Part shown: piece after piece, positions 31,774 through 62,237 of the stretch
Numbering within the stretch: the stretch's first letter is position 1
Layout of the letters: the number at the start of each line of letters is the position of its first letter
NCBI GenBank assembly: GCA_001725415.1
Contig: MEGH01000016.1
Coordinates: 17,721-81,720, forward strand
Origin: Pseudonocardia sp. SCN 73-27
Lineage (GTDB): Bacteria > Actinomycetota > Actinomycetes > Mycobacteriales > Pseudonocardiaceae
Length of the DNA stretch: 64,000 nucleotides
Direction: 5' to 3'
The notes under the pieces: model-generated
What the model saw: only the letters and a program-made list of their open reading frames with translations
Told to the model about the DNA's origin: nothing
Databases searched by the model: none
Made by a program: the position numbers and the translations under genes

Positions 31774-31787
31774 GGATTGTATGCAGT
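31774..31787 (-). promoter_or_regulatory. TGCATACA box with -10, upstream of the IPMDH-family gene
   Basis: Read on the minus strand it is TGCATACAAT (31785-31776); TACAAT is a near-consensus -10 and transcription would run toward the ATG at 31715. TGCATACA is one base from the palindrome TGTATACA, a shape common for FCD-type GntR operators. Four other units in 32-48 kb carry the same box in the same orientation. Confidence 0.6.
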
Positions 31788-32660: not shown

Positions 32661-32690
32661 TTGACGCCATGAGCGCGGGTTGCATACAGT
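32661..32690 (+). promoter_or_regulatory. Promoter with TGCATACA box, amidase operon
   Basis: TTGACG (-35, 32661-32666), 18 bp, TACAGT (-10, 32685-32690); the box TTGCATACAG overlaps the -10. The amidase start is 52 nt downstream. This is the best-formed promoter of the set. Confidence 0.65.
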
Positions 32691-39863: not shown

Positions 39864-39873
39864 GAACGCTCCA

Positions 39874-39901
39874 ATTGTATGCGAGTTCGACTGCCTGACC
39901 A
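39874..39901 (-). promoter_or_regulatory. Promoter with TGCATACA-type box, MFS gene
   Basis: Read on the minus strand: TGGTCA (-35, 39901-39896), 16 bp, TACAAT (-10, 39879-39874), within CGCATACAAT. Only 10 nt separate it from the GTG at 39863, so the leader is very short. Confidence 0.6.
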
Positions 39902-39992
39902 TGGCTGCAGGCCCACCCTCGCACATCGGCGCACGTTGAGAAAAGCCTGATCTACAGGCCGTTTCAGCAACCAGGACCACGCCTGGAAAGCA

Positions 39993-43287: not shown

Positions 43288-43291
43288 CTCG

Positions 43292-44347: not shown

Positions 44348-44388
44348 GTCGGCGCCTTTCTCCTCGTTCACGGGGCCGGTGTCGGCGT

Positions 44389-45954: not shown

Positions 45955-46067
45955 GTCTGGCCTCCTCGGCAGGTACGCGGTGGAAAGGGGGCTGCTCACC
46001 CGAGTCCCGGGCCGGCCGCGTGGAGCGGCCGGCCCGGGATCGTCAGGGAGCGGTTCTCACACGACGG

Positions 46068-47249: not shown

Positions 47250-47392
47250 GTGCTGCCCTCTTCTCGGACCAGATTCAGTCCCCCGATCGGCCAATCGAAG
47301 CGGGTTTCCCCTCATCAGTCAACAGATCTGGCGCCTGGTTTGTAACTGTTGAGTTTCGTAAGCGCCCGGTGACTGCGCTCAATCGGTATGCA
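47241..47392 (-). promoter_or_regulatory. Two TGTATACA-type boxes upstream of the ABC importer operon
   Basis: TTGCATACCGAT on the minus strand (about 47393-47382) lies 133 nt upstream of the start, with TACCGA as a weak -10. A perfect TGTATACA palindrome at 47241-47248 covers the start codon itself. Two sites about 140 bp apart could allow looping by a GntR repressor; binding is inferred. Confidence 0.5.
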
Positions 47393-47885
47393 ATCTTGAA
47401 CCGCTACAGCGCGCAGCCGCTCGACATCCCGGCGTGGTGGGTCCGGCGTGCAGCGCCGTTCCGCGGGCGTCGCCGAACCGTCCGCGGGTGTCGGGATGTC
47501 GTCTCCGGCCGGCGCCACGACGGCGTCGTGACGGCGGGACCGCTCCCCCGTGGAGCGACCGTCCGCTCAGACCCGGCCGGTCCCGGTGAACTCGGTCATC
47601 TCGTCGGGCGAGCTGCCCCGTCTGGGTCCGGAGAGGACCGCCGCCGTCGCGGCCTCAGCCACGGCGCCGACCATCGTGAACGTGCCGGTCGCGCCCGCAC
47701 CCGCGGGCGCACGCATCATCGCCGGACCGCCACCGGGGCCGGTCGAGCAGGAGGGCCCGATCTCCGCGCACGAGCGGGCGCCGGCGGACCTCGGTCCTGG
47801 CCGGGGTGGTGCGGCCGAGCTGCTCATGTCGGGCTCCGAACGGTTCGCGCGCGTGCCTTCCTGATGACGGCGGGTCGGTGGTGCG
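47250..47885. other. 636-bp region between the two modules
   Basis: It holds the promoter and box of the ABC importer operon (47250-47400) and, on the minus strand, one low-confidence small frame (47567-47827). 47400-47560 shows no gene, hairpin or repeat that I can support. Module A's importer operon and module B's hydantoinase gene both run leftward, so this gap also holds the end of the module B transcript. Confidence 0.5.
47567..47827 (-). CDS. Possible small hypothetical protein
   Basis: An 86-residue frame with ATG 47827 preceded by GGAG at 6 nt. The product is rich in Gly, Pro and Ala with a mildly hydrophobic centre (GTFTMVGAVAEAATAAVL) and three or four membrane-neutral Met residues; no family is recognised. 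It starts 58 bp after the hydantoinase stop on the same strand, so it could be the last gene of the module B operon. Composition is also what a chance GC-rich frame would give. Confidence 0.25.
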   Translation of the reverse strand: MSSSAAPPRPGPRSAGARSCAEIGPSCSTGPGGGPAMMRAPAGAGATGTFTMVGAVAEAATAAVLSGPRRGSSPDEMTEFTGTGRV

Positions 47886-49286
47886 TCAGGTGATGAGGTG
47901 GTCGGGCATCGGGTCGGCCTCGAGCGCGCGACCGACGGGGCCCGGGTCGTGGAAGCCGTCGGAGTCGAGCACCACGCGGCCCCCGCTCACGACGACCGAC
48001 GGCCAGCCGGCCAGCTCCTCGCCCTCGTAGGGCGTGTAGTCGGTGGCCATGTGCAGGTCGCCGCTGCGGGCGCTGCGACGCGCGGCCGGGTCGACGACGA
48101 CGAGGTCGGCGTCGTGACCCGCGGCGATGACGCCCTTGGTGGTGAGGCCGTTGAGCCGGGCCGGGTTCGTCGCGAACATGCCGACGAACCGCTCGACCGG
48201 CATCCCGCCGCGCACGACGAGCTGGGTGAACGTGACCGCCAGCCGGGTCTCGACGCCCGGCAGCCCGTTGGGCATGACCCGCACGTCGTGGGAGTGCTCG
48301 GTCTTCTGGCTCGTCGAGTAGCAGCAGTGGTCCGAGCCGAGGGTGTCGATGTCGCCCACGAGCGCGCGCGACCGCAGCGCCGCGACCGTCTCCGGAGCGC
48401 GCAGCGGCGGGCAGCAGACGAACCGCTCGGGGTGCTCGGAGGAGTAGGTTCGCTCGTCGAGGTAGAGGTAGTGCGGGCAGGTCTCGGTGTAGGCGCGCAC
48501 CCCGCGGCGCCGCGCGGCGCGCACCAGGTCGACGGCCTCGGCGGTGGTCTGGTGGACGAAGTAGACGGGCGCGTCGACGTGCTCGGCCGTGGCCAGCACC
48601 TGCGACACCGCCGACGCCTCCGCCAGCTCGGGCCGGGTGCGCGGCATGTGGCCGGCCGCCGCCTCCCCCGCCGCGACCGCGAGCGCCTGCGCGTCCTCGA
48701 TGACGTGGTTGGCCTCGGCGTGCACGTAGGCGATGCCGCCCTGCGCGTGGAGGGTGCGCAGCACCTCCAGCACCGTGTCGGGACCGGCCATGACGACGTC
48801 CTTGTACGTCGTGAACAGCTTGATCGTCCGCACGCCGGTGTTGGCCATCTCGGCGATCTGAGCCGACGTCGAGTCGTCCCAGTCGATGACGCAGCCGTGC
48901 AGCGCGGTGTCGCAGCGGGAGATCTCGGCGAGCTTGCGCCGCTCGTGAACGGCGTCGATCGGGCGCTGGCCGGGGTCCGGGATCGCGAAGTCGATGACGG
49001 TCGTCGTGCCACCCCACAGCGCCGCGATGCTGGCCGACTCGTAGTCGTCGAGCTGGGCGTACTCGCCGAGGCGCTGCCCGATGTGGCAGTGCGGGTCGAC
49101 CCCGCCGGGGACGACGAGCGAGCCGGTGGCGTCGATCGCCCGGTCGTGCGGGGGCAGCGGCAGCGACGGGTCCTGGACCGCGACGATCCGCCCGCCGCTG
49201 ACGACGACCGTCGCCGGTCCGCTGCCGCCGGCGTTGACGACGGTGCCGCCGTGGACGACCAGATCGGCGTACGTGGGCGCGCTCAT
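47886..49286 (-). CDS. Hydantoinase/dihydropyrimidinase-family amidohydrolase (module B)
   Basis: A 466-residue cyclic amidohydrolase with all canonical metal residues: H66 and H68 (GGVDPHCHIG), K156 (TIKLFTTYK), H189 (YVHAEANH), H245 (YFVHQTTAE), D319 followed by H320 (GSDHC). It would open a ring such as hydantoin, dihydropyrimidine, allantoin or cyclic imide. GAGGAG precedes ATG 49286, 28 bp after the GntR stop, so it shares that transcript. Compared with the module A enzyme it keeps the normal DH pair, so the two differ in the active site. Confidence 0.92.
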   Translation of the reverse strand: MSAPTYADLVVHGGTVVNAGGSGPATVVVSGGRIVAVQDPSLPLPPHDRAIDATGSLVVPGGVDPHCHIGQRLGEYAQLDDYESASIAALWGGTTTVIDFAIPDPGQRPIDAVHERRKLAEISRCDTALHGCVIDWDDSTSAQIAEMANTGVRTIKLFTTYKDVVMAGPDTVLEVLRTLHAQGGIAYVHAEANHVIEDAQALAVAAGEAAAGHMPRTRPELAEASAVSQVLATAEHVDAPVYFVHQTTAEAVDLVRAARRRGVRAYTETCPHYLYLDERTYSSEHPERFVCCPPLRAPETVAALRSRALVGDIDTLGSDHCCYSTSQKTEHSHDVRVMPNGLPGVETRLAVTFTQLVVRGGMPVERFVGMFATNPARLNGLTTKGVIAAGHDADLVVVDPAARRSARSGDLHMATDYTPYEGEELAGWPSVVVSGGRVVLDSDGFHDPGPVGRALEADPMPDHLIT

Positions 49287-49314
49287 GGGTGACTCTCCTC
49301 GGCTCTGGGGCGAA

Positions 49315-50043
49315 TCAGCTGGTGGGTGGGGCGGCCTCGCTCGCCGCGGGATGGAAGATCACGGTGTCGACGGCCGCGAGATGGTCCGTCATGACCCGCG
49401 ACGCTTCGGCTGTGTCGCCCGCGCGGATGGCGGCGACGATCAGCCGGTGGTCGTCGAGCTGGCCCTGACGGGCGGCCATGGAGCTGACGGCGAGCTGGTT
49501 GATCAGCACCCACAGCGGGTGCGACTCGGCGCTGACGAACTGGCCGACGATCCCGGACAGGATGGTGTTGCCGCAGCCCAGCGCCAGCTCGGCATGGAAG
49601 CGCAAGCCCAGCTCCAGGAACCGTGACAGCGCGGCCGGGTCGGCCACGAGCTCGCCGGACTCGTCGACGATGCGCTGCAGCCGGGTGATCGTGTCGGGAT
49701 CGACCCGCGTCGCGACCAGGGCCGCGACCGCGGGCTCGACGGAGCGGCGGGCCTCGATCAGCTCGCGTGGCGCGACGTCGAGTGCCGTCTCCTCGATCGC
49801 CTCGACCGCGGGGTGGGCGCGGACGTAGGTGCCATCACCGTGGCGGACCTCGACCGCACCGACGAGCTCCAGCGCGAGGATCGCCTCACGCGCGGTGGTG
49901 CGGGAGACGTCCAGACGTTCGGCCAGGTCACGGTCGCCCGGCAGCCGGGTCCCCGGCAGGTACTCCCCTGTGGCGATGGCCGTGAGCAGCTGCTGGGCCA
50001 CGGCGATGTACAACCGCGTGCGAGATTGGCCCGGCCTCTGCAT
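49315..50043 (-). CDS. GntR-family regulator, FadR/FCD type (module B, internal)
   Basis: A 242-residue regulator. Winged helix at about 8-75 (YLPGTRLPGDRDLAERLDVS, RTTAREAILALELVGAVEV) and FCD domain (LGLRFHAELALGCGNTILS; DDHRLIVAAIRAGDT). It starts at ATG 50043 without a ribosome site; a -35/-10 pair and a perfect AGAGGT-TAG-ACCTCT inverted repeat lie directly in front, so the transcript may be leaderless and self-controlled. It is placed inside the long module B run, between the PuuE-cupin gene and the hydantoinase gene. Confidence 0.92.
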   Translation of the reverse strand: MQRPGQSRTRLYIAVAQQLLTAIATGEYLPGTRLPGDRDLAERLDVSRTTAREAILALELVGAVEVRHGDGTYVRAHPAVEAIEETALDVAPRELIEARRSVEPAVAALVATRVDPDTITRLQRIVDESGELVADPAALSRFLELGLRFHAELALGCGNTILSGIVGQFVSAESHPLWVLINQLAVSSMAARQGQLDDHRLIVAAIRAGDTAEASRVMTDHLAAVDTVIFHPAASEAAPPTS

Positions 50044-50047
50044 GGCG

Positions 50048-50090
50048 AGAGGTTAGACCTCTGTGCGTGGGCACGACAAGAGGTCTAGTC
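50048..50090. promoter_or_regulatory. GntR operator overlapping a leaderless-type promoter
   Basis: AGAGGT TAG ACCTCT (50048-50062) is a perfect inverted repeat 5 nt upstream of the ATG at 50043. A second AGAGGT with TCTAGTC follows at 50079-50090, 31 bp (three turns) away. On the minus strand TTGTCG and TAACCT, 18 bp apart, would serve as -35 and -10 and lie inside the repeat. Autoregulation by the GntR protein is inferred. Confidence 0.6.
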
Positions 50091-50094
50091 GTCG

Positions 50095-51354
50095 TCATTC
50101 GGGACACTCTTCCGTTCGCGGTCGCCGCGCCCCCGGGAACGAGAACACCATGCCTGCCGGGACGTCCCCGGTGTTGACGATCGCGTGCGGCCGACCGGCC
50201 GGGATGTGCAGCGCGTCGCCCACCGTGAACGCGACGTCGCCCAGGTCGGTGCGCAGCACCCCGGACCCCTCCACGACCAGGCAGACCTCCTCGGTCGTGT
50301 GCCTGATCATCGGCGTCCGTTCCCCCGGCAGCACGTGCGAGATACCGAGCGTCGCGGCCGCGCCGGGCACCGAGTCGGCGTCGACGAGCATCCGCGCCCA
50401 CGAGCCCTCGCCCGCAGGCCCGGCGGGAACCACGGTCACCGGCGGCGGGACGGACTCCCCGGCGGCGCGCCAGCCGCGTGCGATCCGCTCACGCGTCGTG
50501 AAGACGACACCGTCGAACCCCGACGCGTACTCGACGAACCGTTCCAGCCCCGCGATCCGCGCGGGCCGGCCGATGATCCGGCAGTGCAGGCCCACCGACA
50601 TCATCCGCGGCGCCTGTGCCGACTCCCGGTACAGCGTGTCGAAGGCGTCCTTGAGGTAGGTGAAGAACTGCTCCGACGTCGCCAACGGGTCGGCGAGCCA
50701 GAACTGGATGTCGTTGGTGTCGGCCGTGTAGGGCACGACCAGGTGCGACGTGCCGGCGACGTCGACCTCGAAGGGCACGTCGTCGGCGTAGGAGTCGGAG
50801 TCGTAGAGGAACCCGCCCTCCTCGACGACGAGCCGCCGCGTCCGCTCGCTCGGCCCGTACCGGCAGTACCAGCCGACCGGCCGCGACCCGGTGGTGCGTT
50901 CCAGCGACTCGACGGCCATCCGGATGTGCTCGCGCTCCTCGTCCTCGGTGAGCGCCCACACCTCCTCCCAGCGCCAGCCGTGGCTGCACACCTCGTGACC
51001 TGCGGCGACGACCGCCTCGGCGACCGCGGGTGCCATCTCGAACGCCTGCGCGCACGCGAAGAACGTCGCGGGCACGCCGTGGCGGCGCAGGACATCGAGG
51101 ATCCGCCAGACGCCGACGCGGGAGCCGTAGTCGTACATCGACTCCATCGCGAGGTTCCGCACGCCGTCGGGGAACGGGTAGGCGCCCCACTCGGTCAGCG
51201 CCTCCTGGGTGGAGTCCCCGGCGGGCAGCGAGCGCTCCGACCCCTCCTCGTAGTTGACGACGAGCGAGATGGCGAGCCGGTCGTCGCCGAGCCAGCGCCG
51301 CGTCGGCGGGTTCGGCCCGTACCCGATGACGTCGCGCCCGCCGGGGCCCGTCAT
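50095..51354 (-). CDS. PuuE-type polysaccharide-deacetylase-fold hydrolase fused to a cupin
   Basis: A 419-residue two-domain enzyme. Residues 1 to about 295 are a NodB/PuuE-type domain: SLVVNYEEGSERS, GHEVCSHGWRWEE, RPVGWYCRYGPSERTRRL and GGFLYDSDSYADD, the pattern of allantoinase PuuE. Residues about 310-410 form a cupin barrel (ISHVLPGERTPMIRHTTEEV, GDALHIPAGRPHAIVN). PuuE-like enzymes hydrolyse ureide or amide rings; cupins occur in ureidoglycine and ureidoglycolate enzymes, so the fusion hints at two steps of one ureide-like route. Its start overlaps the alpha/beta hydrolase stop (ATGA). A separate deacetylase-type gene without cupin lies at 60413. Confidence 0.88.
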   Translation of the reverse strand: MTGPGGRDVIGYGPNPPTRRWLGDDRLAISLVVNYEEGSERSLPAGDSTQEALTEWGAYPFPDGVRNLAMESMYDYGSRVGVWRILDVLRRHGVPATFFACAQAFEMAPAVAEAVVAAGHEVCSHGWRWEEVWALTEDEEREHIRMAVESLERTTGSRPVGWYCRYGPSERTRRLVVEEGGFLYDSDSYADDVPFEVDVAGTSHLVVPYTADTNDIQFWLADPLATSEQFFTYLKDAFDTLYRESAQAPRMMSVGLHCRIIGRPARIAGLERFVEYASGFDGVVFTTRERIARGWRAAGESVPPPVTVVPAGPAGEGSWARMLVDADSVPGAAATLGISHVLPGERTPMIRHTTEEVCLVVEGSGVLRTDLGDVAFTVGDALHIPAGRPHAIVNTGDVPAGMVFSFPGARRPRTEECPE

Positions 51355-52142
51355 GCCTCGTCCCCCAGGAATCCGCGGAGAGCCTCGTCGAACTCCCGCG
51401 GGGTGTCGACCATCGGCGAGTGCCCGGCGAGGGGGATCTCGACGGCCCGGCAGTCCGGGATCCCCGCCATCAGTGTCGCGACGTGCTCCTCGGTGCGGGC
51501 GGCGTCCTCGGCCCCGCGGACGACGAGCGTCGGCACGGAGATCTGCGGCAGCTCGTCGACGACGTCGCCCCCGAGCACCCCGCGCAGCACGGCGGAGAGG
51601 AACGGGTAGTCGGCGGTCTCGACGGCCTCGGCGTAGAGCGCCATGTCCTCGGCAGACGGGTCACGGTACACCAGCGACCGCACGACGGCGGCGGTCGAGG
51701 CCGGTGCCGCGGTGCCGCCCGCGTCCAGCCACTCCCCCAGCGTCGCCCGGAACGGCGCCTTCACCCCCGCGGCCGTGGCCCCGGTGCCGACGAGCACCAG
51801 CGAGTCGAGCGCCGGGCGGCCGGCGATGGCGATGACCTGCGCGAGCAGCCCGCCCGTCGAATTGCCCATGAGCACGACGGGCTGGTCGGTGTACTCCTCG
51901 ATCGCCGACGTGATCGCCGCGGCGAGGGCGTCGAACGCCCCGTCGTCGGCAGGGATCGTGCCCGCGCCGGAGTACATGTCGACCAGCACCCAGTCGCGTT
52001 CGGGCATGAGCTCGACGACGGGCAGCCAGAACTGCCAGCAGCCGAACCACGGGTGCAGCGCGACGATCGGCGCCGCGGCGGAGCCGTCGCCGGCGTGGAC
52101 GTGCAGGTCGAGGCCCGACGCCGACCGCCTGAGGACCGTCAC
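51351..52142 (-). CDS. Alpha/beta hydrolase
   Basis: A 263-residue alpha/beta hydrolase. Oxyanion-side motif ALHPWFGCWQFW, nucleophile S95 in GNSTGG, acid in VVRGAEDAARTEEH and catalytic His in PLAGHSPMVD. Probably hydrolyses an ester, lactone or carbon-carbon bond in the module B pathway, for example an enol-lactone (inference). GTG 52142 overlaps the CitE stop and its stop overlaps the PuuE-cupin start, so it is tightly coupled with both. Confidence 0.9.
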   Translation of the reverse strand: MTVLRRSASGLDLHVHAGDGSAAAPIVALHPWFGCWQFWLPVVELMPERDWVLVDMYSGAGTIPADDGAFDALAAAITSAIEEYTDQPVVLMGNSTGGLLAQVIAIAGRPALDSLVLVGTGATAAGVKAPFRATLGEWLDAGGTAAPASTAAVVRSLVYRDPSAEDMALYAEAVETADYPFLSAVLRGVLGGDVVDELPQISVPTLVVRGAEDAARTEEHVATLMAGIPDCRAVEIPLAGHSPMVDTPREFDEALRGFLGDEA

Positions 52143-52987
52143 GACGCCACCAGCCCGAACTGCGCCGCCCGCTCCAGCGTGGCCTGCGCGCGCTGCGCGA
52201 TGGGGTAGTCCACGAGCTTGTCGTCGACGGTGATGGCCGCGATCCCGTCGCGCTCGGCCTCGTCGAAGGCGGCCACGATGCGTTGCGCGACATCGATCTC
52301 GGCGGGGCTCGGGGAGAGCACCTCGTTGACGATCGGCACCTGGCCGGGATGGATCGTGAACTTGCCGGTGAACCCCATGCCGTGGGCCTCCTCGGTCTGC
52401 CGGCGCATGGCGTCGGGGTCGCGGACATCGGCGAACGCGGTGTCGATCGGCTGCACCCCGGCGGCGACGGCGGCCATCGCGACATGGATGCGCGAGGACG
52501 TCATCAGCGGGTGTGCCTGCTCGGGGACGACGCCCATGTCGAGCGCGAAGTCGTAGGCGCCGAAGGAGATCCGGCGGACCCGGTCGGTCGGGCGGGCCAG
52601 CGTGACGGCGTTGAGCACCCCGGCGGCGGTCTCGAGGATGAGCACCAGCTCGAGGCCGGCGGCCAGGTCACGGTCGATGCCGGCGACGACGTCGGCGTCC
52701 TCGCACTTGGGGACGATGACGCCGCGCGCGCCGATCCGGGCCGCGGCGGCGACGTCCTCGGTGTGCCACTCGGTGTCGACGGGGTTGACCCGCACGTACA
52801 CCGACTGGCCCGCGGCGACGGCGAGGTCGGCGGCGGCCTGCAGGTTGTCACGCGCGGCCGCCTTCTGGCTCACCCCGACCGAGTCCTCCAGGTCGAGGAT
52901 CACCGCGTCGGCTCCGCTGCGGGAGGCCTTCTCGAACCGGTCGGGCCGGTTGGACGGCACGAACAGCAGTGAGCGGGGGTCGGTCAT
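52139..52987 (-). CDS. HpcH/HpaI-CitE-type CoA-ester lyase (module B)
   Basis: A 282-residue CitE-family lyase: [16 protein letters not shown], metal motif [42 protein letters not shown] and [15 protein letters not shown]. It would cleave a beta-hydroxyacyl-CoA (malyl-, citramalyl- or similar) to acetyl- or propionyl-CoA and an oxoacid, the carbon-releasing step of module B. ATG 52987 overlaps the IlvD stop. It is related to but distinct from the CitE gene at 3690. Confidence 0.9.
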
Positions 52988-54663
52988 GCGGGGGCTCCGT
53001 TCCAGGGAGAGGTCGTCGCGCCGGTCGCCGCCGACCCGACCGTGGCGGCGTACTTGGCGAAGACTCCAGAGGTGAACTCCGGTGCGGCGGGCGGCGGCGG
53101 TGTGCGGGCCGACAGCTCCGCGTCGACGGCGATCGTGCGGGTGTCGGCGTCGAGGACGATCCGGTCGCCGTCGCGCAGCAGGCCGATCGGCCCGCCCGCC
53201 GCGGCCTCGGGGGCGACGTGCCCGACCATGAGACCACGGGTGGCGCCGCTGAACCGGCCGTCGGTGACGAGTGCGACCGTCTCGCCCAGCCCGCGGCCGA
53301 CGATCGCCGACGTCACCTGGAGCATCTCCGGCATGCCCGGCCCGCCGCGCGGTCCGACGTTGCGGATGACGACGGTGTCGCCCGGCCCGACCCCGCCACC
53401 GAGGACGGCGTCGAGCGCGGCACGTTCGCCGTCGAAGACCCGCGCGGTGCCGGTGTGGGAGCGCGGGGTGTGCGCGGTGATCTTGACGACGGCACCGTCC
53501 GGCGCGAGGTTGCCGCGCAGCACGACGAGTCCGCCCTCGGTCGCGAACGGCTCACCGAGCGCGGACACGACGCGCTGACCAGGGGTCTCCGCGGCCGCGG
53601 CCGCCTCCTCGGCGAGCGTCCGGCCGGTCACGGTGAGCGTCGAGCCGTCGACGAGCCCGCTCTCGACGAGCCGGCTGACCAGCAGCATCGTGCCGCCCGC
53701 GGCGTGCAGGTCGGCGGCGCTGTAGGTGCCGCCGGGCATGAGGTCGCACAGCAGCGGGGTGCGCCGGGAGATGCGGTCGATGTCGTCGAGGGACAGTGGC
53801 ACCCCGACCTCGGACGCCAGCGCGATCAGGTGCAGGACCGCGTTGGTCGAGCCGCCCGAGGCGGCGACCGCGGCGACGGCGTTCTCGAAGGCGGGCCGGG
53901 TGAGCAACGTGCTGGGGCGCAGATCCTTCGTCGCCACGGTCTCGACGAGTGCGGCCGCCTCCGCCACCGCGGCCGGCTTGGCCGCGTCGACGGCGGGGAT
54001 GCCGTTGACCCGCGCCGGCGACAGCCCCAGGACCTCCATGACCATCGCCATGGTGTTGGCGGTGTACTGCCCGCCGCATGCACCCGCGCCGGGGCAGGCG
54101 GCGGCCTCGATCTCGTCGAGGTCGTCGTCGGTGATCGTTCCCGCGGCGTGCGCGCCGATCGCCTCGAACACGTCGTGCACCGCGACGACCCGGCCGCGGT
54201 ACCGCCCGGTCAGGATGGTGCCGCCGTAGAGCAGCACCGACGGCCGGTCGACGCGCGCCATACCCATCGCCATGGCGGGCACCGTCTTGTCGCACGACGC
54301 GATGCCGACGATCCCGTCGAACATGTGGCCCCGGGCGACCAGCTCGACCGAGTCCGCGATGAGCTCGCGGCTCACCAGCGACGCCCGCATCCCCGGCGTA
54401 CCCATCGTGATCCCGTCGGAGATCGCGATGGTGTTGACCTCCATCGGCGTGCAGCCGATGGCGCGCAACCCTTCCGACGCGTGCGCGGCGAGGTCGCGGT
54501 GGTTGAGGTTGCACGGCATCGTGCCCGTCCAGCTGTGGACGACCCCGACGACCGGCTTGCGCAGATCGTCCGGGCTGAAGCCGATGTTGCGCAGGTAGGA
54601 GCGTGCCGCGGCGCGCTCCGGACCCTCGTACAGCGCCCGGCTGGGGCGCTCCTGGAACGGCAT
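52984..54663 (-). CDS. IlvD/Edd-family dehydratase
   Basis: A 559-residue iron-sulfur dehydratase of the dihydroxyacid / sugar-acid dehydratase family. Cluster cysteines lie in [21 protein letters not shown] and [15 protein letters not shown]; the C-terminal domain shows [22 protein letters not shown] (catalytic serine region). It removes water from a 2,3-dihydroxy acid. Isolated from other branched-chain amino acid genes and coupled to CitE by ATGA, it is probably a catabolic enzyme and not the biosynthetic IlvD. AGGAAG precedes ATG 54663, 13 bp after the permease stop. Confidence 0.92.
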
Positions 54664-54676
54664 GGTCTTCCTTATC

Positions 54677-55708
54677 TCAGAGAGAGCCGGACTCGCGGAC
54701 CTCCTTGCGCCTGCTGTAGCGCGAGGCGCAGACCGCGACGACGAGCGCGCCGCCGTAGAAGAGGTCCGAGACGTAGGACTGGGCGCCGAGCATCGTGAGG
54801 CCCGTGGTGCCCGCGACCAGGAAGTACACGGCGATGAACGAGCCCCACGAGTTGAACTTGCCGGGCAGGATCGCCGTGGAGCCGAGGAACGCGGCGGCGA
54901 ACGTCGGCAGGAGGAACGCCTCGCCCGAGACCGGGTCGGCCGCCCCCGTCGTGCCGGCGTAGAGGATGCCGGCGAGCGAGGCGAGCGTCGCCGAGGCGAC
55001 CAGCGCGGCCCACCGGATCCGGGTGACGCGCAGCCCCGAGAGCCGCGACACCGCGCGTCCACGGCCGACGAACAGCAGCCGCCGCCCCGCTGCGGTGTAC
55101 TCCAGGAAGTACCAGAGCCCGGCGGTGATGATCAGGCCGTACCAGAACGCGAGCGGGACGCCGAGGAACCGGTTGACGATGACCCAGTTGGTGAGGCCCG
55201 TCGAGATGCCGCTGATCGTCGTCGAGTCGCCCATCCAGAGCACGAGGCCCGAGAGGATCGTCCCCGTTCCCAGCGTGACGATGAACGGGTCGACCCCGAA
55301 CAGCAGCACGAACCAGCCGTTGAGGAAGCCGATGACCGCGCCCGCCACCAGGCACAGCACGATGACCAGCCAGATGTTCATGCCTTGTTGGGCGTTGAGG
55401 ACGCCGATCATCATCTGCGACGTCATCAGCACGCCGGCGACCGACAGGTCGTAGTCGCCGGCGGTCAGTGGGATCAGCAGCGCGCAGGTGAGCACGACGA
55501 GGACGGCCTGCGAGCCGAGGATGCCCTGCAGCGTCGACGTCGTGAGGAACGTGTCGGGCCGCAGCGACCCGAACACCGCGATCACGACGACCAAGGCGAT
55601 CACGATGGAGAACCGCTGCGCGAGCGAGCGGGCGACCGTGCCGCCCGCCGACCTCCCGGACGCGACGTCGACGTCGGTCACCGGTTCGGAGTTCTTCGTC
55701 CGGGTCAT
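54677..55708 (-). CDS. Ribose-type ABC transporter permease (module B)
   Basis: A 343-residue RbsC-type permease with about 9-10 helices, [40 protein letters not shown] and a basic C-terminus. It parallels the module A permease along its whole length (compare FLGSTTIKPGRFNPWG). ATG 55708 overlaps the ATPase stop (ATGA). It is followed after 13 bp by the IlvD gene, tying transport and enzymes into one transcript. Confidence 0.93.
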
Positions 55709-57330
55709 CGCCCGTCACCTTCACCTTCGGTCGGGCCTGCGGGGACCGCACGGTCGGCGAGCGTGTAGCACTCGTGGGCGATGCGGTCCTTCGTGATGTC
55801 GGCGCCCCGCAGCTCCCGGGCCACCCGGCCCCGGTCGAAGATCAGGACGCGGTCGCAGATGGCAGCCAGCTGCTCGTAGTCCGAGCTCGCGCACAGCACC
55901 GCGCAGCCCGACCGGGCCGCGTCGTGGACGACCTCGTAGATCTGGGCGCGGGCGCCGATGTCGACGCCCTGCGTCGGCTCGTGCAGCAGCAGCACCCGCG
56001 GGTCGGCGCCGAGCCACTTGGCCAGCAGCACCTTCTGCTGGTTGCCGCCCGACAACGACTGGTAGGCGATCCCCGGGATCGGGGGCCGCACGTCGAACCG
56101 GTCGAGGGTCTCCTGGCAGTCGCGGGCGAGCTGCGGCCGGGAGAGCCCCCGCCACGTCGTGTAGCGGTCGATGATCTGCAGCATCGCGTTGTCCCGCACG
56201 CTGATGCTGCCGACGCTCCCGTTGTTCTGCCGGTCGGCGGGGATGAGCGCCATCCGGTGCGCGATCGCCTTGACGGGGTCCATCGCCGGCAGCGACAGCG
56301 TCTCGTCGCCGGTGCGCAACGTCCCGGTCGCAGCCGGGAACGCCCCGAACAGCAGGTACGGGATGCGTTCGAAGCCCGACCCGAGCAGCCCTGTCATGCC
56401 GAGCACCTCGCCCTCGCCGAGCGCGAACGACACCGACGCCACCCGCTCGTCGGCCAGGTCCTCGACGACGACGGCCGCGTCCGCCGCGGTGGGCGCCACG
56501 TCCTCGCGCTCGCCGCCGTGCTCGGGCAGCTCGCGGCCGATGATCAGCTCGACCAGCTCGGTGTCGGACACCGACCGGGTCTCGACGGTCGCCCGCAGCC
56601 TGCCGTCGCGGAAGATCGTCGCCCGGTCGGTGATCTCGCGGACCTCGTCGAGGTCGTGGGAGACGAACAATACGGCCGCGCCACCGCCCGCGATCTCGCG
56701 CATCAGCGAGAACAGCTGGCGACGGCCCGTCTCCGGCAGGAACACCGTCGGCTCGTCGAGGATCAGCATCCCGGGCCCGGTGCGGGTGCTGCCGCGCAGT
56801 GTCCGCATCTCGTGGACGGCACGCACGATCGCGAGCAGGGCCCGCTGCGTGCCGTCGAGATCGGCGACGCGTGCCGTCGGGTCGAGGTCGACGGAGAACT
56901 CGTCGAACAACGACCGCGCCTCGGCGCGCTGCCGCCGCCAACCGATCGCCCAGTCACGGGCCCTGCTGAACGTCCCGATCCGCAGGTTCTCCAGCACCGA
57001 CAGGCTGGTGATCAGCCCGAGGTCCTGGTGGACGAAGCTCATCCCGTAGTCGCGGAACGCCCCCGGGGGCAGCGGCAGCGGAACGTCCTCGCCGTTGATC
57101 CGCAGAGCGCTGCCCGGGTCGGGGTCGTGGAAGCCGGCGAGGACCTTGATGAACGTCGACTTGCCCGAGCCGTTCTCGCCGAGCAGGCCGTGGATCTCGC
57201 CGGGCAGGACGTCGAGGTCGACGGAGTCGAGGACCCGCACCCCGGCGAAGGACTTGGAGACGCCACGCGCCTCGACGACCGGCGGAGCGCCCGCGAGGGA
57301 CGCTCCGCCGGCCTGCGCCGGAACCGCCAT
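55705..57330 (-). CDS. Ribose-type ABC ATPase, two nucleotide-binding domains (module B)
   Basis: A 541-residue RbsA-type ATPase. Domain 1: Walker A GENGSGKST, Walker B MLILDEPTVFLP, signature region degenerate (VADLDGTQRALLAIVRAV). Domain 2: Walker A degenerate (GLLGSGFERIP), signature LSGGNQQK intact, Walker B VLLLHEPTQGVDIG with His for Asp. This is the same one-sided loss as in the module A ATPase. I chose ATG 57330, whose A is shared with the binding-protein stop (TGATG); a start at 57348 would lie further inside that gene. Confidence 0.94.
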   Translation of the reverse strand: MAVPAQAGGASLAGAPPVVEARGVSKSFAGVRVLDSVDLDVLPGEIHGLLGENGSGKSTFIKVLAGFHDPDPGSALRINGEDVPLPLPPGAFRDYGMSFVHQDLGLITSLSVLENLRIGTFSRARDWAIGWRRQRAEARSLFDEFSVDLDPTARVADLDGTQRALLAIVRAVHEMRTLRGSTRTGPGMLILDEPTVFLPETGRRQLFSLMREIAGGGAAVLFVSHDLDEVREITDRATIFRDGRLRATVETRSVSDTELVELIIGRELPEHGGEREDVAPTAADAAVVVEDLADERVASVSFALGEGEVLGMTGLLGSGFERIPYLLFGAFPAATGTLRTGDETLSLPAMDPVKAIAHRMALIPADRQNNGSVGSISVRDNAMLQIIDRYTTWRGLSRPQLARDCQETLDRFDVRPPIPGIAYQSLSGGNQQKVLLAKWLGADPRVLLLHEPTQGVDIGARAQIYEVVHDAARSGCAVLCASSDYEQLAAICDRVLIFDRGRVARELRGADITKDRIAHECYTLADRAVPAGPTEGEGDGR

Positions 57331-58502
57331 CAGGACGCCTTGCCCCACAGCTTCATGTAGTTCTGGACGAAGGAGTCGCCGTAGCCCTTGCCCAGTTCCG
57401 GCGGGGTGCCGGCCTCGGTCACGTTGGCCTTCGTGAACACCCGCAGCTGGATGCCCTCGTCACCGGAGGCGATGGGGCCCTGGCCGGACAGGATGCGCCC
57501 GATCTGGTCGACGACCGCGTACCCGACCTGCGACGGGTTCTCCCCGACGTCCATCTTCACCACGTCCGCGTCCTGCATCATCTTCAGGACGAACGGGGTG
57601 CCGTTGAAGGTGGAGATGTGCACCTTGCCGGTCGCGCCCGCGAGCTGGATGCCCGGCACGACGAACTGCGACATGGAGTCGTAGAGCGGCATGATGTAGT
57701 TGATGTTCGGGTCGGACTGGATGGCCGACCGCGTGATGTTGGTGATCTGCGTCGACCAGTCCGGCACCGACACGTTCTGGAAGGTGAGCTTGCAGTTCGG
57801 GCAGTACTTCTTGAACTCGTCGTTGGTCGCGTCGATCGACGCGGGGCTGCCGATGACCTCCTTCGACGTCAGGACCAGCACGTTCGCCGCACAGTTGGTG
57901 TCCTTGATGATGAAGTCCGCCGACAGCCGCGCGGCCAGGTCGTAGGGCTGCGCGACGCGGGCCGTGACCTCGGGGCCCTGCGGCTGGGTGAGGTCCTCGT
58001 TGAGCACCGTGATGATCGGGATGCCCGCCGCCTTCGCGGCCGCGGCCTGCGGCTGGAAGTACGTCGGGCTGATCGTGCCGCCCGTGAGCGTGATCGCGGC
58101 GGGCTTCTGCGCGATCGCCGCGTTCATGCCCTGGATCCACTGGGTGCGGTCACCCTGGTTCGGGTAGTCGACGACCTTCATCCCGACCTTGCCCGCGGCC
58201 TCGGTCATCGAGGTCGTGAGCGCCTGGGTGAAGGGGTTGGCGCTCGACTCCTGGATGTTGAAGATCGTCTTGCCCTCGGCCGCCGACATGTCGACGGGCG
58301 GGCCCGGGTCGGTGTAGGTCGGGACCTTCGAGTACTTGTCGAGCGCGGCGTTGACCTGCGAGAGGTCGCAGTTCGCGCCGCCACCGCCGCCCGCCGCGGT
58401 GCCCGACCCCGAACCGCCCGACGAACAGGCGGCCACCAGGCCGAACATCACGACGGCCGTGGCGGCCGTCGCCACCCGTCTCTTCGTAGTGCTGGACAGC
58501 AT
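57330..58502 (-). CDS. Ribose-type ABC substrate-binding lipoprotein (module B)
   Basis: A 390-residue binding protein with lipoprotein signal (KRRVATAATAVVMFGLVAAC) and Gly/Ser linker, then a type-I binding fold (TIFNIQESSANPFTQALT; QAAAAKAAGIPIITVLNED). Three or four further cysteines (GANCDL, DTNCAAN, YCPNCK) recall those of the module A protein and may form disulfides. AGGAGG stands about 4 nt before ATG 58502. Shared C-terminus NVTEAGTP...GYG...MKLWG with module A. Ligand unknown. Confidence 0.93.
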   Translation of the reverse strand: MLSSTTKRRVATAATAVVMFGLVAACSSGGSGSGTAAGGGGGANCDLSQVNAALDKYSKVPTYTDPGPPVDMSAAEGKTIFNIQESSANPFTQALTTSMTEAAGKVGMKVVDYPNQGDRTQWIQGMNAAIAQKPAAITLTGGTISPTYFQPQAAAAKAAGIPIITVLNEDLTQPQGPEVTARVAQPYDLAARLSADFIIKDTNCAANVLVLTSKEVIGSPASIDATNDEFKKYCPNCKLTFQNVSVPDWSTQITNITRSAIQSDPNINYIMPLYDSMSQFVVPGIQLAGATGKVHISTFNGTPFVLKMMQDADVVKMDVGENPSQVGYAVVDQIGRILSGQGPIASGDEGIQLRVFTKANVTEAGTPPELGKGYGDSFVQNYMKLWGKAS

Positions 58503-58539
58503 CTCTCCTCCTCGGGAGCGCACGGGTCCGGCGGCCGGT

Positions 58540-59184
58540 CTACCGGCCGCCGTCGGCGATGGACGCCAGGTACTTCTCCACCTCGTCCTGCGGCACCACG
58601 TCGGCGTACTTCGAACCGATGTCGAAGAGGTTCGCGCGGTGCGGCTCCTCGGCCCGGTCGAAGACGCACTCCTCGGGGACCACGACGCGAAACCCGTAGG
58701 ACACCGCGTCGATCACGCTCGCCCGGATGCACCCGGACGTCGAACACCCCGTCACGACCACGGTGTCGACCCCACGTTGGACCAGGTACGACGTGAGGTG
58801 CGTCCCGAAGAACGCCGACGGGAACTTCTTGACCAGCACCAGCTCGTCGGGCCGGCGGGCCAGCTCGGGGTGGATCTCCACCGCCGCGGGGTCGTCGGTG
58901 CGCAGCTCGCGCAGCGCCGGGACCTTCGCGGCGAACGACGCCCCGTCCTCCCCCGGCGCGTACGCGATCGTCGTGAACACGATCGGCAGCCCGGCCTCCC
59001 GGGCGTGCCCCAGCAGTCCCGCGATGTGCGGGACCGCGGGCGCGTCGTCGGCACCGACGCCGTAGGCACTGGACGTGAACGCCCGCGAGACGTCCACGAC
59101 CAGCACCGCGGGCCTGCTCCCCGTGCCCCCGGTGGCGCCGATGCCACGCTGCGCGTAGAACTCGCCGACCTCCTCGAAGCCCAT
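58540..59184 (-). CDS. Isochorismatase-family amidohydrolase (module B)
   Basis: A 214-residue cysteine hydrolase. Triad D31 (VLVVDVSRAF), K119 (LVLVKKFPSAFFGT) and C152 (GCSTSGCIRASV), the N-carbamoylsarcosine/maleamate amidase type, like the module A protein at 36827. It lies 11 bp after the CoA-transferase and 37 bp before the importer genes. It probably hydrolyses a carbamoyl or amide group on the intermediate released by the ring-opening enzymes (inference). Confidence 0.9.
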   Translation of the reverse strand: MGFEEVGEFYAQRGIGATGGTGSRPAVLVVDVSRAFTSSAYGVGADDAPAVPHIAGLLGHAREAGLPIVFTTIAYAPGEDGASFAAKVPALRELRTDDPAAVEIHPELARRPDELVLVKKFPSAFFGTHLTSYLVQRGVDTVVVTGCSTSGCIRASVIDAVSYGFRVVVPEECVFDRAEEPHRANLFDIGSKYADVVPQDEVEKYLASIADGGR

Positions 59185-59195
59185 GTGCCCGCCCG

Positions 59196-60416
59196 TCAGA
59201 TCACGCCGTCGGCCTCGAGGGCCGCCAGCTGCTCGTCGGTCATCCCCAGCTGATCGCGGTAGACCTCGTGGTTGCTCGACCCCTTCGGGGCGCCCGCGTG
59301 CCGGACCTTGCCCGGGGTGTCGGAGAGGACCGGGACGACGTTCTGCATCAGCACGTCGCCCAGCCCCTCGTGCGGGACCCGCACGATCGTCTCCCGCGCC
59401 AGGTACTGCGGGTCCTCGACGATGTCCGCCGCGGTGTAGGCCGGGGCGATGGCGCCCTCCGCGGTCTCGAACTCCGCCAGCACCTCCTCGGCGGTGCGTT
59501 CGGCGATCCAGCCACCGATCGCGTCGTCCAGCTCCTCGGTGTGCGCGATCCGGCCGGGGTTGCCCGTGAACCACGGTTGCTCGGCGAGATCGGGCCGCCC
59601 GACCAGTTTCACGACCCGGTCCGCGATCGACTGCGCCGTCGCCGAGAGGGCGAGCCAGCGACCGTCCTTGGTCTGGTAGGCGTTGCGCGGCGCGCTGTAG
59701 GGCGTGTGGTTGCCCGACCGTCCGACGACCTCACCGGTCTTGTCGTAGAGGATCGTCTGCGGGCCGAGCATCCAGAACATCGGCTCGTAGATCGACAGGT
59801 CGATGACCTGACCCTTGCCGTCGCCGCCGTGCTCACGCCACCACAGCGCGAACATGATCGCGAAGCAGCCGGTGAACCCCGCGATGCAGTCGCCGAGGGC
59901 GAACGGCGGCAGCGCCGGCGGCTTGTCGGGCCAGCCGTTGATGTGGGCGAACCCCGACATCGCCTCGGCGAGCGTCCCGAACCCGGGCCGGTTCGCATAG
60001 GGGCCGGTCTGGCCGAACCCGGTGGTGCGCAGGATGACCAGGCCCGGGTTGATCTCGTGCAGCACGTCGGGGCCCAGGCCCCAGCGCTCCAGCGTTCCGG
60101 GCCGGAAGTTCTCGACGAGCACGTCGGCGTCGGCGATGATCTTCTTCAGGATCTCGGCGCCCTCGGGGGCCGAGAGCTTCAGCGTGATGCACCGCTTGTT
60201 GCGCGACACCAGGGCCCAGAACAGCGACTCGCCCTCGACGTTCCAGCCCATCGACCGCAGGCTGTCGCCGCGCGGGTGCTCGACCTTGAGCACGTCGGCG
60301 CCGAAGTCCGCCAGGAGGGTCGCCGCGACGGGGCCCGCGAAGATCGACGCCGCGTCGACGACCTTGAGGCCCTGCAGCGGGCCACCGGCCGGCTCGGTCC
60401 CGGGGGTGGCACTCAT
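59196..60416 (-). CDS. Family III CoA-transferase (module B)
   Basis: A 406-residue CaiB/BaiF-type transferase with LLADFGADVLKVEHPRGD and the expected catalytic D176 (PPFALGDCIAGFTG). It matches the module A transferase (34147) in several long stretches, for example VENFRPGTLERWGLGP against IENFRPGVMERWGLGP, so the two are close paralogues. ATG 60416 overlaps the stop of the deacetylase-type gene. It would activate the free acid before dehydration and CitE cleavage. Confidence 0.93.
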   Translation of the reverse strand: MSATPGTEPAGGPLQGLKVVDAASIFAGPVAATLLADFGADVLKVEHPRGDSLRSMGWNVEGESLFWALVSRNKRCITLKLSAPEGAEILKKIIADADVLVENFRPGTLERWGLGPDVLHEINPGLVILRTTGFGQTGPYANRPGFGTLAEAMSGFAHINGWPDKPPALPPFALGDCIAGFTGCFAIMFALWWREHGGDGKGQVIDLSIYEPMFWMLGPQTILYDKTGEVVGRSGNHTPYSAPRNAYQTKDGRWLALSATAQSIADRVVKLVGRPDLAEQPWFTGNPGRIAHTEELDDAIGGWIAERTAEEVLAEFETAEGAIAPAYTAADIVEDPQYLARETIVRVPHEGLGDVLMQNVVPVLSDTPGKVRHAGAPKGSSNHEVYRDQLGMTDEQLAALEADGVI

Positions 60417-61354
60417 GCGGCGCCCTCGTCGGGGTGGTTCTCCAACCAGAACCGCGCGATCTGCTCGCGGGTCGCGAACCACACGTCGGACTGCTGCTGG
60501 GCGTGCTCGATGAACTCCCGCAACGCCGACGTCCGCCCCGCCTGACCGGCCCACCGCGGGTGCAGACCGATCGACATCATCCGCGGATGCCCGCCCCGAC
60601 CCTCGCGCAACAACTCGTCGAAACCACGGGCGCAGACGTCGAAGAAGTCGGTCGGGCTGGCCATCCCGGGCGGCATCGCGTACTTCACGTCGTTGTAGAC
60701 CATCGTGTACGGCACCACGAGCTGGCGCTTGTCACCGACGCTGACGTAGTACGGCAGGTCGTCGTTGTAGGCGTCGGAGTCGTAGAGGAATCCGCCCTCC
60801 TCCACGAGCAGCTCACGGGTGTGCACGCTCGGGCCGTAGCGGCAGTACCAGCCGACGGGCCGCGTCCCGCACGTCCGCTCGAACGACGCGATCGCCTCGA
60901 GCATGTGCTCGCGCTCCTCGTCGCGGCTCAGCGTCCAGGGCTCCTCCCAGCGCCAACCGTGGCTGCAGACCTCGTGCCCGCCCGCGACCACCGCCTTGGC
61001 CAGCTCGGGGTTCTGCTCGAACGCGACCGCCGCGGCGTAGAACGTCGTCGGGACCCGGTACTCGGAGAACAGGCGCAGCAGCCGCCACACACCGGCGCGC
61101 GCGCCGTACTCGTAGATCGACTCGACGCACAGGTCCCGGTACTCCGCCGGCATTCCGTACGGAATCTCGCCGAGGCCCTCGTTGCGCGCGTCGCCCGCGG
61201 CCCACGAGACCTCCGAGCCCTCCTCCGCGTTCACCACGATGTTGACGGCGATCTTCGCCCCACCCGGCCAGTGGACGGCCGGTGGCGTCGCGCCGTACCC
61301 GATGAGATCGCGCCGGGGGCCGGGCACGTCGGCTTCGGTGAACTGCAGGGTCAT
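60413..61354 (-). CDS. PuuE-type polysaccharide-deacetylase-fold hydrolase
   Basis: A 313-residue single-domain protein: NIVVNAEEGSEVSW, GGHEVCSHGWRWEE, GTRPVGWYCRYGPSVHTREL, GGFLYDSDAYNDDLPYY and MMSIGLHPRWAGQAGR. It is closely related to the hydrolase domain of the PuuE-cupin fusion at 50095 but lacks the cupin. PuuE itself is a metal-independent allantoinase; this enzyme may hydrolyse a different ureide or amide. Start ATG 61354, 25 bp after the GntR stop; overlap with the CoA-transferase. Confidence 0.88.
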   Translation of the reverse strand: MTLQFTEADVPGPRRDLIGYGATPPAVHWPGGAKIAVNIVVNAEEGSEVSWAAGDARNEGLGEIPYGMPAEYRDLCVESIYEYGARAGVWRLLRLFSEYRVPTTFYAAAVAFEQNPELAKAVVAGGHEVCSHGWRWEEPWTLSRDEEREHMLEAIASFERTCGTRPVGWYCRYGPSVHTRELLVEEGGFLYDSDAYNDDLPYYVSVGDKRQLVVPYTMVYNDVKYAMPPGMASPTDFFDVCARGFDELLREGRGGHPRMMSIGLHPRWAGQAGRTSALREFIEHAQQQSDVWFATREQIARFWLENHPDEGAA

Positions 61355-61379
61355 CAGGTCCTCACTGCGTCGTAAAGAG

Positions 61380-62051
61380 CTACTGCGTCGTCGGTTCCGC
61401 GTCTCCCAGCTCCGGCTGCTCGGACGCCGCTCCCGCGCCGATGTGCACGTACATCGCGTCCGCACCAGCCTGAGGGTCGCCCGCCTCGACGGCGGCCATC
61501 ACCTCGTCGTGCTCGCGCATGCTGTCGGCCGTTCGCTGCTCGACGGCCCAGTTGGTCCGCCACGGGAACACGTCCCAGAGCGTTCCGGTGAACTGCTGGA
61601 GCATGTCCGAGCCGGCCGCCTGGTAGATCGCCAGGTGCCACGCGGAGTTGAGCTGGGCCATCCGCTTCCCGCGCCCGGCGCGACCGGCCGCGAGGAAGTT
61701 CTCGTGGATCGTCTGCAGCTCCTCCTTCTGGGCATCGGTCATGCGCTCGATCGCCAGCCGGGTCGCCAGCGGCTCGAGCGCCATACGCATTGCATACACA
61801 TCGGACAACTTCTCGGGCGAGTGACGAGCCACCACGACGCCCCGGTGGGCCTCGTAGTGCACGAGCCGGTCGGCCTGCAGCAGACGCAGGGCCTCCCGGA
61901 TCGGCGTGGGGCTCATCCCCAGCTCGCGCGCCAGCTCGTCGACCTGGAGGCGATACCCCACCTCCAGCTGCCCGCTGCGGATCCGTTCGCGTAGGACCCG
62001 CAGGGCGAGCTCCGACTTCGTCTGGTGGGTCGGAACCTCAGGATCGGTCAC
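61380..62051 (-). CDS. GntR-family regulator, FCD type (head of module B)
   Basis: A 223-residue regulator, winged helix about 8-70 (GYRLQVDELARELGMSPTPI, REALRLLQADRLVHYEAH) and FCD domain (LNSAWHLAIYQAAGSDMLQQ; REHDEVMAAVEAGDPQAG). Start GTG 62051 lacks a clear ribosome site; a longer reading upstream contains unlikely sequence. It is first in the thirteen-gene module B run and therefore the likely main regulator. A TTGCACACAA element about 95 nt upstream may be its site. Confidence 0.9.
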   Translation of the reverse strand: MTDPEVPTHQTKSELALRVLRERIRSGQLEVGYRLQVDELARELGMSPTPIREALRLLQADRLVHYEAHRGVVVARHSPEKLSDVYAMRMALEPLATRLAIERMTDAQKEELQTIHENFLAAGRAGRGKRMAQLNSAWHLAIYQAAGSDMLQQFTGTLWDVFPWRTNWAVEQRTADSMREHDEVMAAVEAGDPQAGADAMYVHIGAGAASEQPELGDAEPTTQ

Positions 62052-62144
62052 AGGGCAAATCTTGCAGGTACCACCGTCGACGACGTCCCACGGGAGGCTC
62101 CCTTCGTTGGGTCCTGCAATGAATAGAAAATATCCTGTAGCCGA

Positions 62145-62156
62145 ATTGCACACAAG
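62145..62156. promoter_or_regulatory. TTGCACACAA element, candidate operator upstream of module B
   Basis: TTGCACACAA (62146-62155) has TTG/CAA arms, like the GntR-type boxes of module A (TTGCATACA). It lies in the AT-richer leader 94 nt before the GTG at 62051, near GATATTTTCTATTC on the minus strand, which could supply a -10. Evidence is weak. Confidence 0.35.
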
Positions 62157-62237
62157 AGCTTCTGGCTGGAAGCGACACACCGATACATCGTCGACACGTC
62201 ACCGACATGCCGCGGGCACGACGGCGGGCGTCCGTCG

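Follow-up and report, generated by a model that had tools for sequence, protein, structure and literature searches.

What is broken down by a bacterium that keeps hydrolases of rings and amides in one long gene run with class III CoA transferases and carbon-carbon lyases? This question is raised by a 64,000-nucleotide stretch of the Pseudonocardia sp. SCN 73-27 genome (contig MEGH01000016.1), the whole of which is called the window here. A first-pass annotation had singled out thirteen minus-strand genes, referred to below as module B, and had proposed that they form an undescribed operon for ureide or amide catabolism. The gene block turns out to be real, conserved and larger than first reported, with 27 genes (30633-62051), and it is probably a two-armed regulon for the catabolism of cyclic amides, with a mechanism that we infer from its gene content.

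A conserved block of 27 genes with two paralogous arms

Module B extends from the start of a GntR gene (GTG, 62051) to the stop of a hydantoinase-like gene (47886), and all 13 reading frames are open (Table 1). Its 12 junctions measure 28, 51, -4, -4, -4, 13, -4, -19, 16, 11, -4 and 25 bp, so that the compact run described in the first-pass annotation, with gaps of at most 51 bp and six overlaps, is confirmed. The families named there were likewise recovered by Pfam and NCBIfam profile matches (the scans on which the statements of absence below also rest), and this supports both an importer interleaved with enzymes in a conserved catabolic run and the company of ring and amide hydrolases with a CoA transferase and a C-C lyase. 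All 13 genes are co-linear in P. dioxanivorans (strain CB1190), P. sulfidoxydans and Pseudonocardia sp. N23, which is more than chance would give. A module of thirteen genes is nevertheless too small a unit, since the conserved block also takes in a second importer (importer A, 43292-47315), which adjoins module B in the three other species too, and a paralogous left arm (30633-43287).

In every one of the three other species, all 27 genes were recovered at 76-99% identity, three of the alignments being short (MFS transporter 2 in P. sulfidoxydans, truncated by the end of the locus, and MFS transporter 1 and the PuuE-cupin gene in N23). Order and strands are identical in P. dioxanivorans and P. 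sulfidoxydans, while in N23 24 genes lie in order in one stretch and the remaining three in an overlapping one. The N23 PuuE-cupin gene (L012, near 11646-11830) is split over two frames, which may reflect an assembly or sequencing error or a broken gene. Orthologues of PuuE 1 were found in four of 62 genus genomes (96-100% identity with the own genome included, 96-99% outside it), and the same four carry amidase 2 (89-100% and 89-93%, respectively; next best 47%). PuuE-family matches at the search threshold occur in 10 of the 62, the six others holding only more distant members. A search with CitE, in a set of 60 genus genomes from which N23 is absent, returned three carriers.

The borders of the conserved block coincide with gene sets. 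The IclR gene that follows the block in the window sits about 17 kb further away in P. sulfidoxydans, which makes the module B GntR gene the last one of the shared block on this side. At the other end, no match to the window frames between 25 and 30.6 kb was found in P. dioxanivorans within the 7.5 kb read beyond 30633. The roughly 17 kb in question (P. sulfidoxydans G023:C1, ~39300-56300) are not at that place in the window. At 63048-63953 (plus strand), the window has an acetylating acetaldehyde dehydrogenase beside an IclR regulator that scores with BhcR but under the cut-off.

Judging from their sequences, the two arms are paralogous. Each has a hydantoinase-like ring opener (31% identity between arms), an isochorismatase-family amidase (43%), a class III CoA transferase (45%), a GntR regulator (29%) and a C-C lyase, and importers A and B are 39-52% identical, their ATPases 52%. 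The lyase differs in type, being CitE-like in module B and HMG-CoA-lyase-like in the left arm, and module B additionally holds two PuuE-family proteins.

Table 1. Genes of the conserved block and conserved sites upstream of its predicted units (window positions; functions are predicted from the families given)
Feature	Position	Strand	Evidence and remarks
GntR/FCD regulator, first module B gene	61380..62051	-	PF07729, PF00392; start GTG 62051
PuuE-family hydrolase 1 (proposed ring opener)	60413..61354	-	TIGR03212 332.8 bits, below cut-off 424.6; GWYCRYGPS; tree
Class III CoA transferase (CaiB 1)	59196..60416	-	PF02515
Isochorismatase-family amidase 1, N-carbamoylsarcosine/maleamate-amidase type	58540..59184	-	PF00857; nearest solved chains
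Substrate-binding lipoprotein, importer B	57330..58523	-	PF13407
ABC ATPase, importer B	55705..57348	-	PF00005 in two stretches
ABC permease, importer B	54677..55708	-	PF02653
IlvD-type dihydroxy-acid dehydratase	52984..54663	-	NF002068 728.6 bits, cut-off 644
CitE/citramalyl-CoA-lyase-like C-C lyase	52139..52987	-	PF03328; RipC model 165.7 bits, below cut-off 375
Alpha/beta hydrolase, lactonase-like	51351..52142	-	PF12697; PcaD-type models under cut-off
PuuE-family hydrolase 2 fused to cupin domain	50095..51354	-	PF01522 + PF07883
FadR-type GntR regulator	49315..50043	-	PF07729, PF00392
Hydantoinase/dihydropyrimidinase-like amidohydrolase 1	47886..49286	-	TIGR02033 388.2 bits, just below cut-off 393.25
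Lipoprotein, importer A	46068..47315	-	PF13407
ATPase, importer A	44389..45999	-	PF00005
Permease, importer A	43292..44428	-	PF02653
MFS transporter 2	42097..43287	-	PF07690
Aldo/keto reductase	41066..42100	-	PF00248
HMG-CoA-lyase-like C-C lyase	40057..41049	+	PRK05692 256.2 bits, cut-off 246; PF00682
MFS transporter 1 (start uncertain)	38685..39980	-	PF07690
Zinc-type alcohol dehydrogenase/quinone reductase	37501..38541	+	PF08240, PF00107
Isochorismatase-family amidase 2	36827..37504	+	PF00857; biuret hydrolase and RutB models under cut-off
Hydantoinase/dihydropyrimidinase-like amidohydrolase 2	35421..36827	+	PF01979; TIGR02033 350.9 bits (longer frame), cut-off 393.25
Class III CoA transferase (CaiB 2)	34147..35388	+	PF02515
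Amidase-signature amidase (start uncertain)	32743..34107	+	PF01425; possible starts examined
Left-arm GntR/FCD regulator	31787..32482	-	PF00392, PF07729
Isopropylmalate/isocitrate/tartrate dehydrogenase family enzyme	30633..31715	-	PF00180; all listed NCBIfam models under cut-off
Operator-like site upstream of module B	62146..62155	-	TTGTGTGCAA here; TTGCATACAA, TTGCATACAA, TTGCATGCAA in the other three species
27-bp conserved element upstream of module B	62114..62140	-	One variable base across four species
Operator-like site upstream of importer A	47384..47393	-	TTGCATACCG, identical in all four species
Operator-like site between left-arm GntR and amidase	32680..32689	+	TTGCATACAG, identical in all four species
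Operator-like site upstream of isopropylmalate-type dehydrogenase	31777..31786	+	TTGTATGCAG, identical in all four species

Predicted ring-opening and amide-hydrolysing enzymes

The curated PuuE model is one for allantoinase, and members of its family are named allantoinase in many of the plasmid records listed. Both PuuE domains of module B, however, score below the curated cut-off of that model (TIGR03212, 424.6 bits), the fused copy at 353.1 and PuuE 1 at 332.8. Both carry the motif GWYCRYGPS, whereas the PuuE encoded beside uraH, uraD, alc and PuuD in the urate cluster of P. aeruginosa carries GWYTGR, and both branch apart from the latter in the tree with moderate support (92/85). The use of these motifs as group markers is our own reading of the alignments and has exceptions. 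The two domains are 53% identical and fall into separate, well-supported clades (100/100 and 100/99), so that they are ancient paralogues and not the product of a recent tandem duplication. The fused one aligns along nearly the full domain to 1z7a and 3cl6; a structure model of the whole fusion was poor (mean pLDDT 56, the cupin part mostly below 50) and was not used.

The fusion to a cupin recurs in L049 (59% identity over the whole length). In two other Pseudonocardia (L068 and L069) cupin similarity lies just 3' of the PuuE gene in another frame, as a separate gene or a shifted fusion; their PuuE is 63% identical to the fused copy and adjoins a transporter-like frame. Outside the four carriers, five of the nine loci in the tree with the GWYCRYGPS-type motif (L042, L043, L057, L059 and L062) have an annotated dihydropyrimidinase or ureidoglycolate lyase nearby and four (L041, L049, L068 and L069) do not. 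No urate genes were seen in the stretch read at two loci of the GWYTGR type (L058 and L061). A context rule that would cleanly separate the two PuuE groups, drawn from annotated surroundings of loci other than L053-L055, L070, L071 and L073, was dropped, given these two loci, two more (L044 and L072) to which we return below, and the less than strong support (92/85) of the branch between the groups.

The hydantoinase-like enzymes are both under the cut-off of the D-hydantoinase/dihydropyrimidinase model. Enzyme 1 has all four of the patterns that we take to hold the metal ligands and enzyme 2 three, the SDH pattern being absent. Relatives of hydantoinase 2 were found neither on plasmids at E 1e-70 nor, apart from the own copy, among 296 phylum genomes at 1e-110, and the left arm thus has no outside context. 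The nearest solved chains of amidase 1 are 26st, 4l07, 3ot4 and 1nba, with Asp, Lys and Cys aligned, and for 1nba, 4l07 and 26st the flanking sequence aligns as well; these three residues presumably are the catalytic triad, and 4l07, like 3uao, we take to be a maleamate amidase. The catalytic residues of amidase 2 were read by eye only.

CoA transferases, lyases and a dehydratase

CaiB 1 and CaiB 2 belong to the class III CoA transferases (Pfam CoA_transf_3, 394.1 and 393.3 bits, cut-off 23.3). Elsewhere, CaiB relatives with 55-58% identity adjoin a CitE gene in eight of the 10 neighbourhoods read (the exceptions being L079 and L081), which makes transferase and lyase a recurring pair. Relatives of the CitE-like lyase were found at 31 loci in a scan of genome contigs, four with at least 69% identity and the others with at most 40%, and among 397 order genomes close relatives at 1e-60 were found in the own genome only. 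The nearest CitE found outside the genus (69%) lies in a Nocardiopsaceae metagenome-assembled genome (MAG; L013), where it shares a cluster with a CaiB (54%), a RuBisCO-like protein, dehydrogenase-like frames and a protein with the sugar-binding and nucleotide-binding domain pair of acid-sugar kinases, presumably a kinase. A single gene run in a Woeseiaceae MAG (L035) combines hydantoinase A and B, an isochorismatase-family protein (42%), CitE, three CaiB genes, an amidase and a mesaconyl-CoA-hydratase-like protein. In the own genome, 25 kb beyond the window (C16:98001-116000, L087), there is a further set with a CoA transferase (51%), a hydantoinase-like gene and CitE, and with frames read by eye as MmgE/PrpD and a peptidase.

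No CoA-ester hydratase of the MaoC or RipB type was recognised in 30633-62051. An itaconate pathway for the block was rejected on this ground and on the RipC score of its lyase (165.7 against a cut-off of 375). A separate plus-strand row in the window (3606-8819), made up of a CitE/RipC-like lyase, MmgE/PrpD, a CoA transferase, an acyl-CoA dehydrogenase and a RipB/Ich-like hydratase, is the gene set described for itaconate and methylsuccinate use in the part of the source consulted (PMC12290011).

The IlvD protein is a dihydroxy-acid dehydratase by its profile score (NF002068; with TIGR00110 it reaches 611.5, just under 618.15), and has the motifs PCN, CDKT, GACGG and DGRFSG, whose cysteines we take to be family markers. 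Dehydratases of this type act on free 2,3-dihydroxy acids. Together with the lack of a recognised CoA-ester hydratase, this means that a dehydration after CoA activation is not supported.

Operator-like sites

Upstream of the module B GntR gene and of importer A, sequence conservation between species comes in blocks. All four operator-like sites of Table 1 precede predicted units and persist in the three other species. The 27-bp element upstream of module B has one match in the window with up to three mismatches allowed, and none in 100 shuffles. A scan of 46000-63100 found no sigma-70-type promoter; terminator-like sites in the promoter scan numbered six against 2.9 expected. Elsewhere in the genome, C19:45365-45436 has two close matches to the pattern of these sites (TTGYRTRCMR), one of them a perfect palindrome.

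Proposed pathway and its alternatives

From the families, their order and conservation, the paralogy of the arms, the catalytic residues of amidase 1 and the shared motif, we infer the following reactions and step order, the transcription units, the function of the operators and the imide nature of the substrate. Our preferred reading, to which we give a probability of roughly one half, is that the block is a two-armed catabolic regulon for cyclic amides, most likely cyclic imides or compounds close to them. Related substrates would enter through the two paralogous ABC importers, the hydantoinase-like and PuuE-like enzymes would open the ring by hydrolysis, and the isochorismatase-family amidases and the amidase-signature enzyme would set the amide nitrogen free as ammonia. 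What is left would be a free dicarboxylic acid, probably with a hydroxyl group, and from it a class III CoA transferase would make the CoA ester, which the lyase, CitE-like in one arm and HMG-CoA-lyase-like in the other, would split into acetyl-CoA and an oxoacid. Through a shared predicted operator of the TTGCATACAA type, GntR/FCD regulators would switch the units on together. The IlvD protein, the isopropylmalate-type dehydrogenase, the alpha/beta hydrolase, the reductase and the cupin may deal with the side chains, or with other hydroxy acids, of these compounds. The proposed order, from import through ring opening, removal of the amide and CoA transfer to cleavage, is that of the first-pass annotation except for the dehydration placed there between activation and cleavage, which is not supported.

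Two absences shape this scheme. Among the 27 genes, none was recognised as coding for an aminotransferase, amine oxidase or ammonia lyase; without a recognised gene for breaking an amine C-N bond, the nitrogen is probably bound to acyl groups, as it would be in a cyclic imide. Without a recognised CoA-ester hydratase, the acid should already bear its hydroxyl group. A more specific version is tentative: two parallel arms, each ending in a different type of lyase, would mineralise cyclic imides, ring size or side chain choosing the arm, and the PuuE-type proteins, one of them fused to a cupin, would be imidases, which would be metal-free if they are like PuuE itself.

Several observations weigh against the preferred reading. 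The IlvD protein has no place in a simple scheme, and the structure model of the importer B lipoprotein (pLDDT 75.2) has sugar-binding proteins for most of its nearest folds. Ureides, too, can be substrates of PuuE and hydantoinase relatives, so that an imide is not proved. Against setting the PuuE proteins apart from the allantoin type in particular, the PuuE of L044, a neighbour of a urate hydroxylase, groups with the module proteins at the wider level of the tree, and at the GWYTGR-type locus L072 frames resembling hydantoinase and isochorismatase occur within about 5 kb. The four carriers may form a single clade, in which case co-inheritance could be one event. As for common control, the pattern TTGYRTRCMR has four matches in the window, against a shuffle mean of 0.83 and a maximum below four in 100 shuffles, but was built from the sites upstream of module B and importer A only (two of the four), and a longer first version matched once. 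In the 6.95-Mb genome it has 47 matches, four of which are the sites in the block, against 80 for a reversed control (one palindromic place being counted twice); at this density 0.21 would be expected in the block, and the Poisson P for the two non-defining sites is about 0.02. The site at 32680-32689 lies between genes only with the amidase start at 32743, and N23 has an extra, unshared match in the left arm (L088 14948). The conserved motif supports, but does not prove, common control of the predicted units.

Among the alternatives, catabolism of hydantoins or dihydropyrimidines survives best, although we consider it unlikely. Here, the hydantoinase would open a ureide ring and the isochorismatase-family enzyme would remove the carbamoyl group, in the manner of N-carbamoylsarcosine amidase, to give an amino or hydroxy acid. 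Hydantoinase 1 indeed scores near the D-hydantoinase cut-off, the nearest chains to amidase 1 include N-carbamoylsarcosine amidohydrolase, and amidase 2 scores with the biuret hydrolase and RutB models, though under their cut-offs. The ureide of the first-pass annotation is thus one option. However, nothing in the block was recognised as an aminotransferase, amino-acid dehydrogenase or ammonia lyase, a lack of amino-acid enzymes that a cyclic imide fits better, and an acid free of nitrogen is what the CoA transferases and lyases suggest.

Somewhat more doubtful is a route for acid-sugar derivatives, in which a sugar-like amide or lactone would enter through the importers, IlvD and the alpha/beta hydrolase would process a sugar acid, and CaiB and CitE would split the hydroxy acid that results. 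The fold predicted for the importer B lipoprotein, the presence of IlvD and of an isopropylmalate/tartrate-type dehydrogenase, and the company of the L013 CitE (CaiB, RuBisCO-like and acid-sugar-kinase-type proteins) are consistent with it. Yet IlvD scores far better with the branched-chain dehydratase than with the arabinonate and xylonate models, and a sugar acid would need neither four ring hydrolases nor three amidases.

Salvage of purine ureides is distinctly improbable. It would have PuuE as allantoinase, a cupin releasing urea, and CitE with CaiB condensing glyoxylate and acetyl-CoA to malate by a reverse lyase reaction. The PuuE family itself, the L044 relative and a uricase in the own genome (contig C8) speak for it; the absence of uricase reported earlier holds for the cluster and not for the genome. 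Cut-offs, motif and tree led us to rank this route low, and neither urate and allantoin genes in general nor allantoicase, ureidoglycolate lyase or OHCU decarboxylase in particular were recognised in the block, in keeping with the earlier statement that the cluster has no standard purine or Rut gene set. Finally, a chance neighbourhood of unrelated, separately regulated catabolic genes is very improbable, because even if each family by itself is widespread among actinomycetes (93 of 394 class genomes, for instance, hold CaiB relatives at E 1e-115), the genes overlap, their order is kept in four species, the arms are paralogous and a conserved motif is shared.

Comparison with known systems

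Among the matches listed from the open-licence literature searched, no description of this combination of genes and reactions was found, and to that extent the block may still be called undescribed. If the preferred reading is true, it would directly couple the hydrolysis of rings and amides to the cleavage of CoA esters, which that literature does not describe together, and would offer a testable 27-gene regulon in four species with a candidate operator, a non-allantoinase role for part of the PuuE family and a role for CaiB-CitE pairs that lack a hydratase.

The PuuE allantoinase is of the same family as the block proteins, but these are under its cut-off, have another motif and are not accompanied by recognised urate genes. 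In the part of one account consulted, the natural substrate of PuuE is called a small cyclic imide, and HpPgdA is said to differ from PuuE in binding a metal ion (PMC3084791). Another paper, PMC8508750, proved to have no bearing on the block. With the N-carbamoylsarcosine/maleamate amidase group, amidase 1 shares the aligned Asp, Lys and Cys and their flanks. The closest described pair of imidase and amidase that we found is that of the Aspergillus nidulans nicotinate pathway, the cyclic imidase HxnM and the amide hydrolase HxnN, as presented in the excerpt consulted (PMC9304392). There, as proposed here, a hydrolase related to the polysaccharide-deacetylase fold opens a cyclic imide and the half-amide is then hydrolysed to a hydroxy-dicarboxylate. 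Unlike the block proteins, HxnM is nearest to the Pseudomonas cyclic imide hydrolase and, structurally, to HpPgdA, while HxnN is FAAH-like, and in contrast to the block that excerpt mentions neither a CoA transferase nor a lyase (PMC9304392).

The itaconate/methylsuccinate cluster, as far as the excerpted source describes it, shares with the block the logic of a CoA transferase paired with a citramalyl-CoA lyase (PMC12290011), from which the block departs in having no recognised RipB/Ich hydratase and in adding ring and amide hydrolases. The same excerpt reports a second lyase homologue that adjoins a CoA transferase but lacks a hydratase, and suggests that it does not serve itaconate (PMC12290011); this is the arrangement seen in the block. 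Taken together, the block resembles known imidase/half-amidase chemistry and itaconate-type CoA chemistry.

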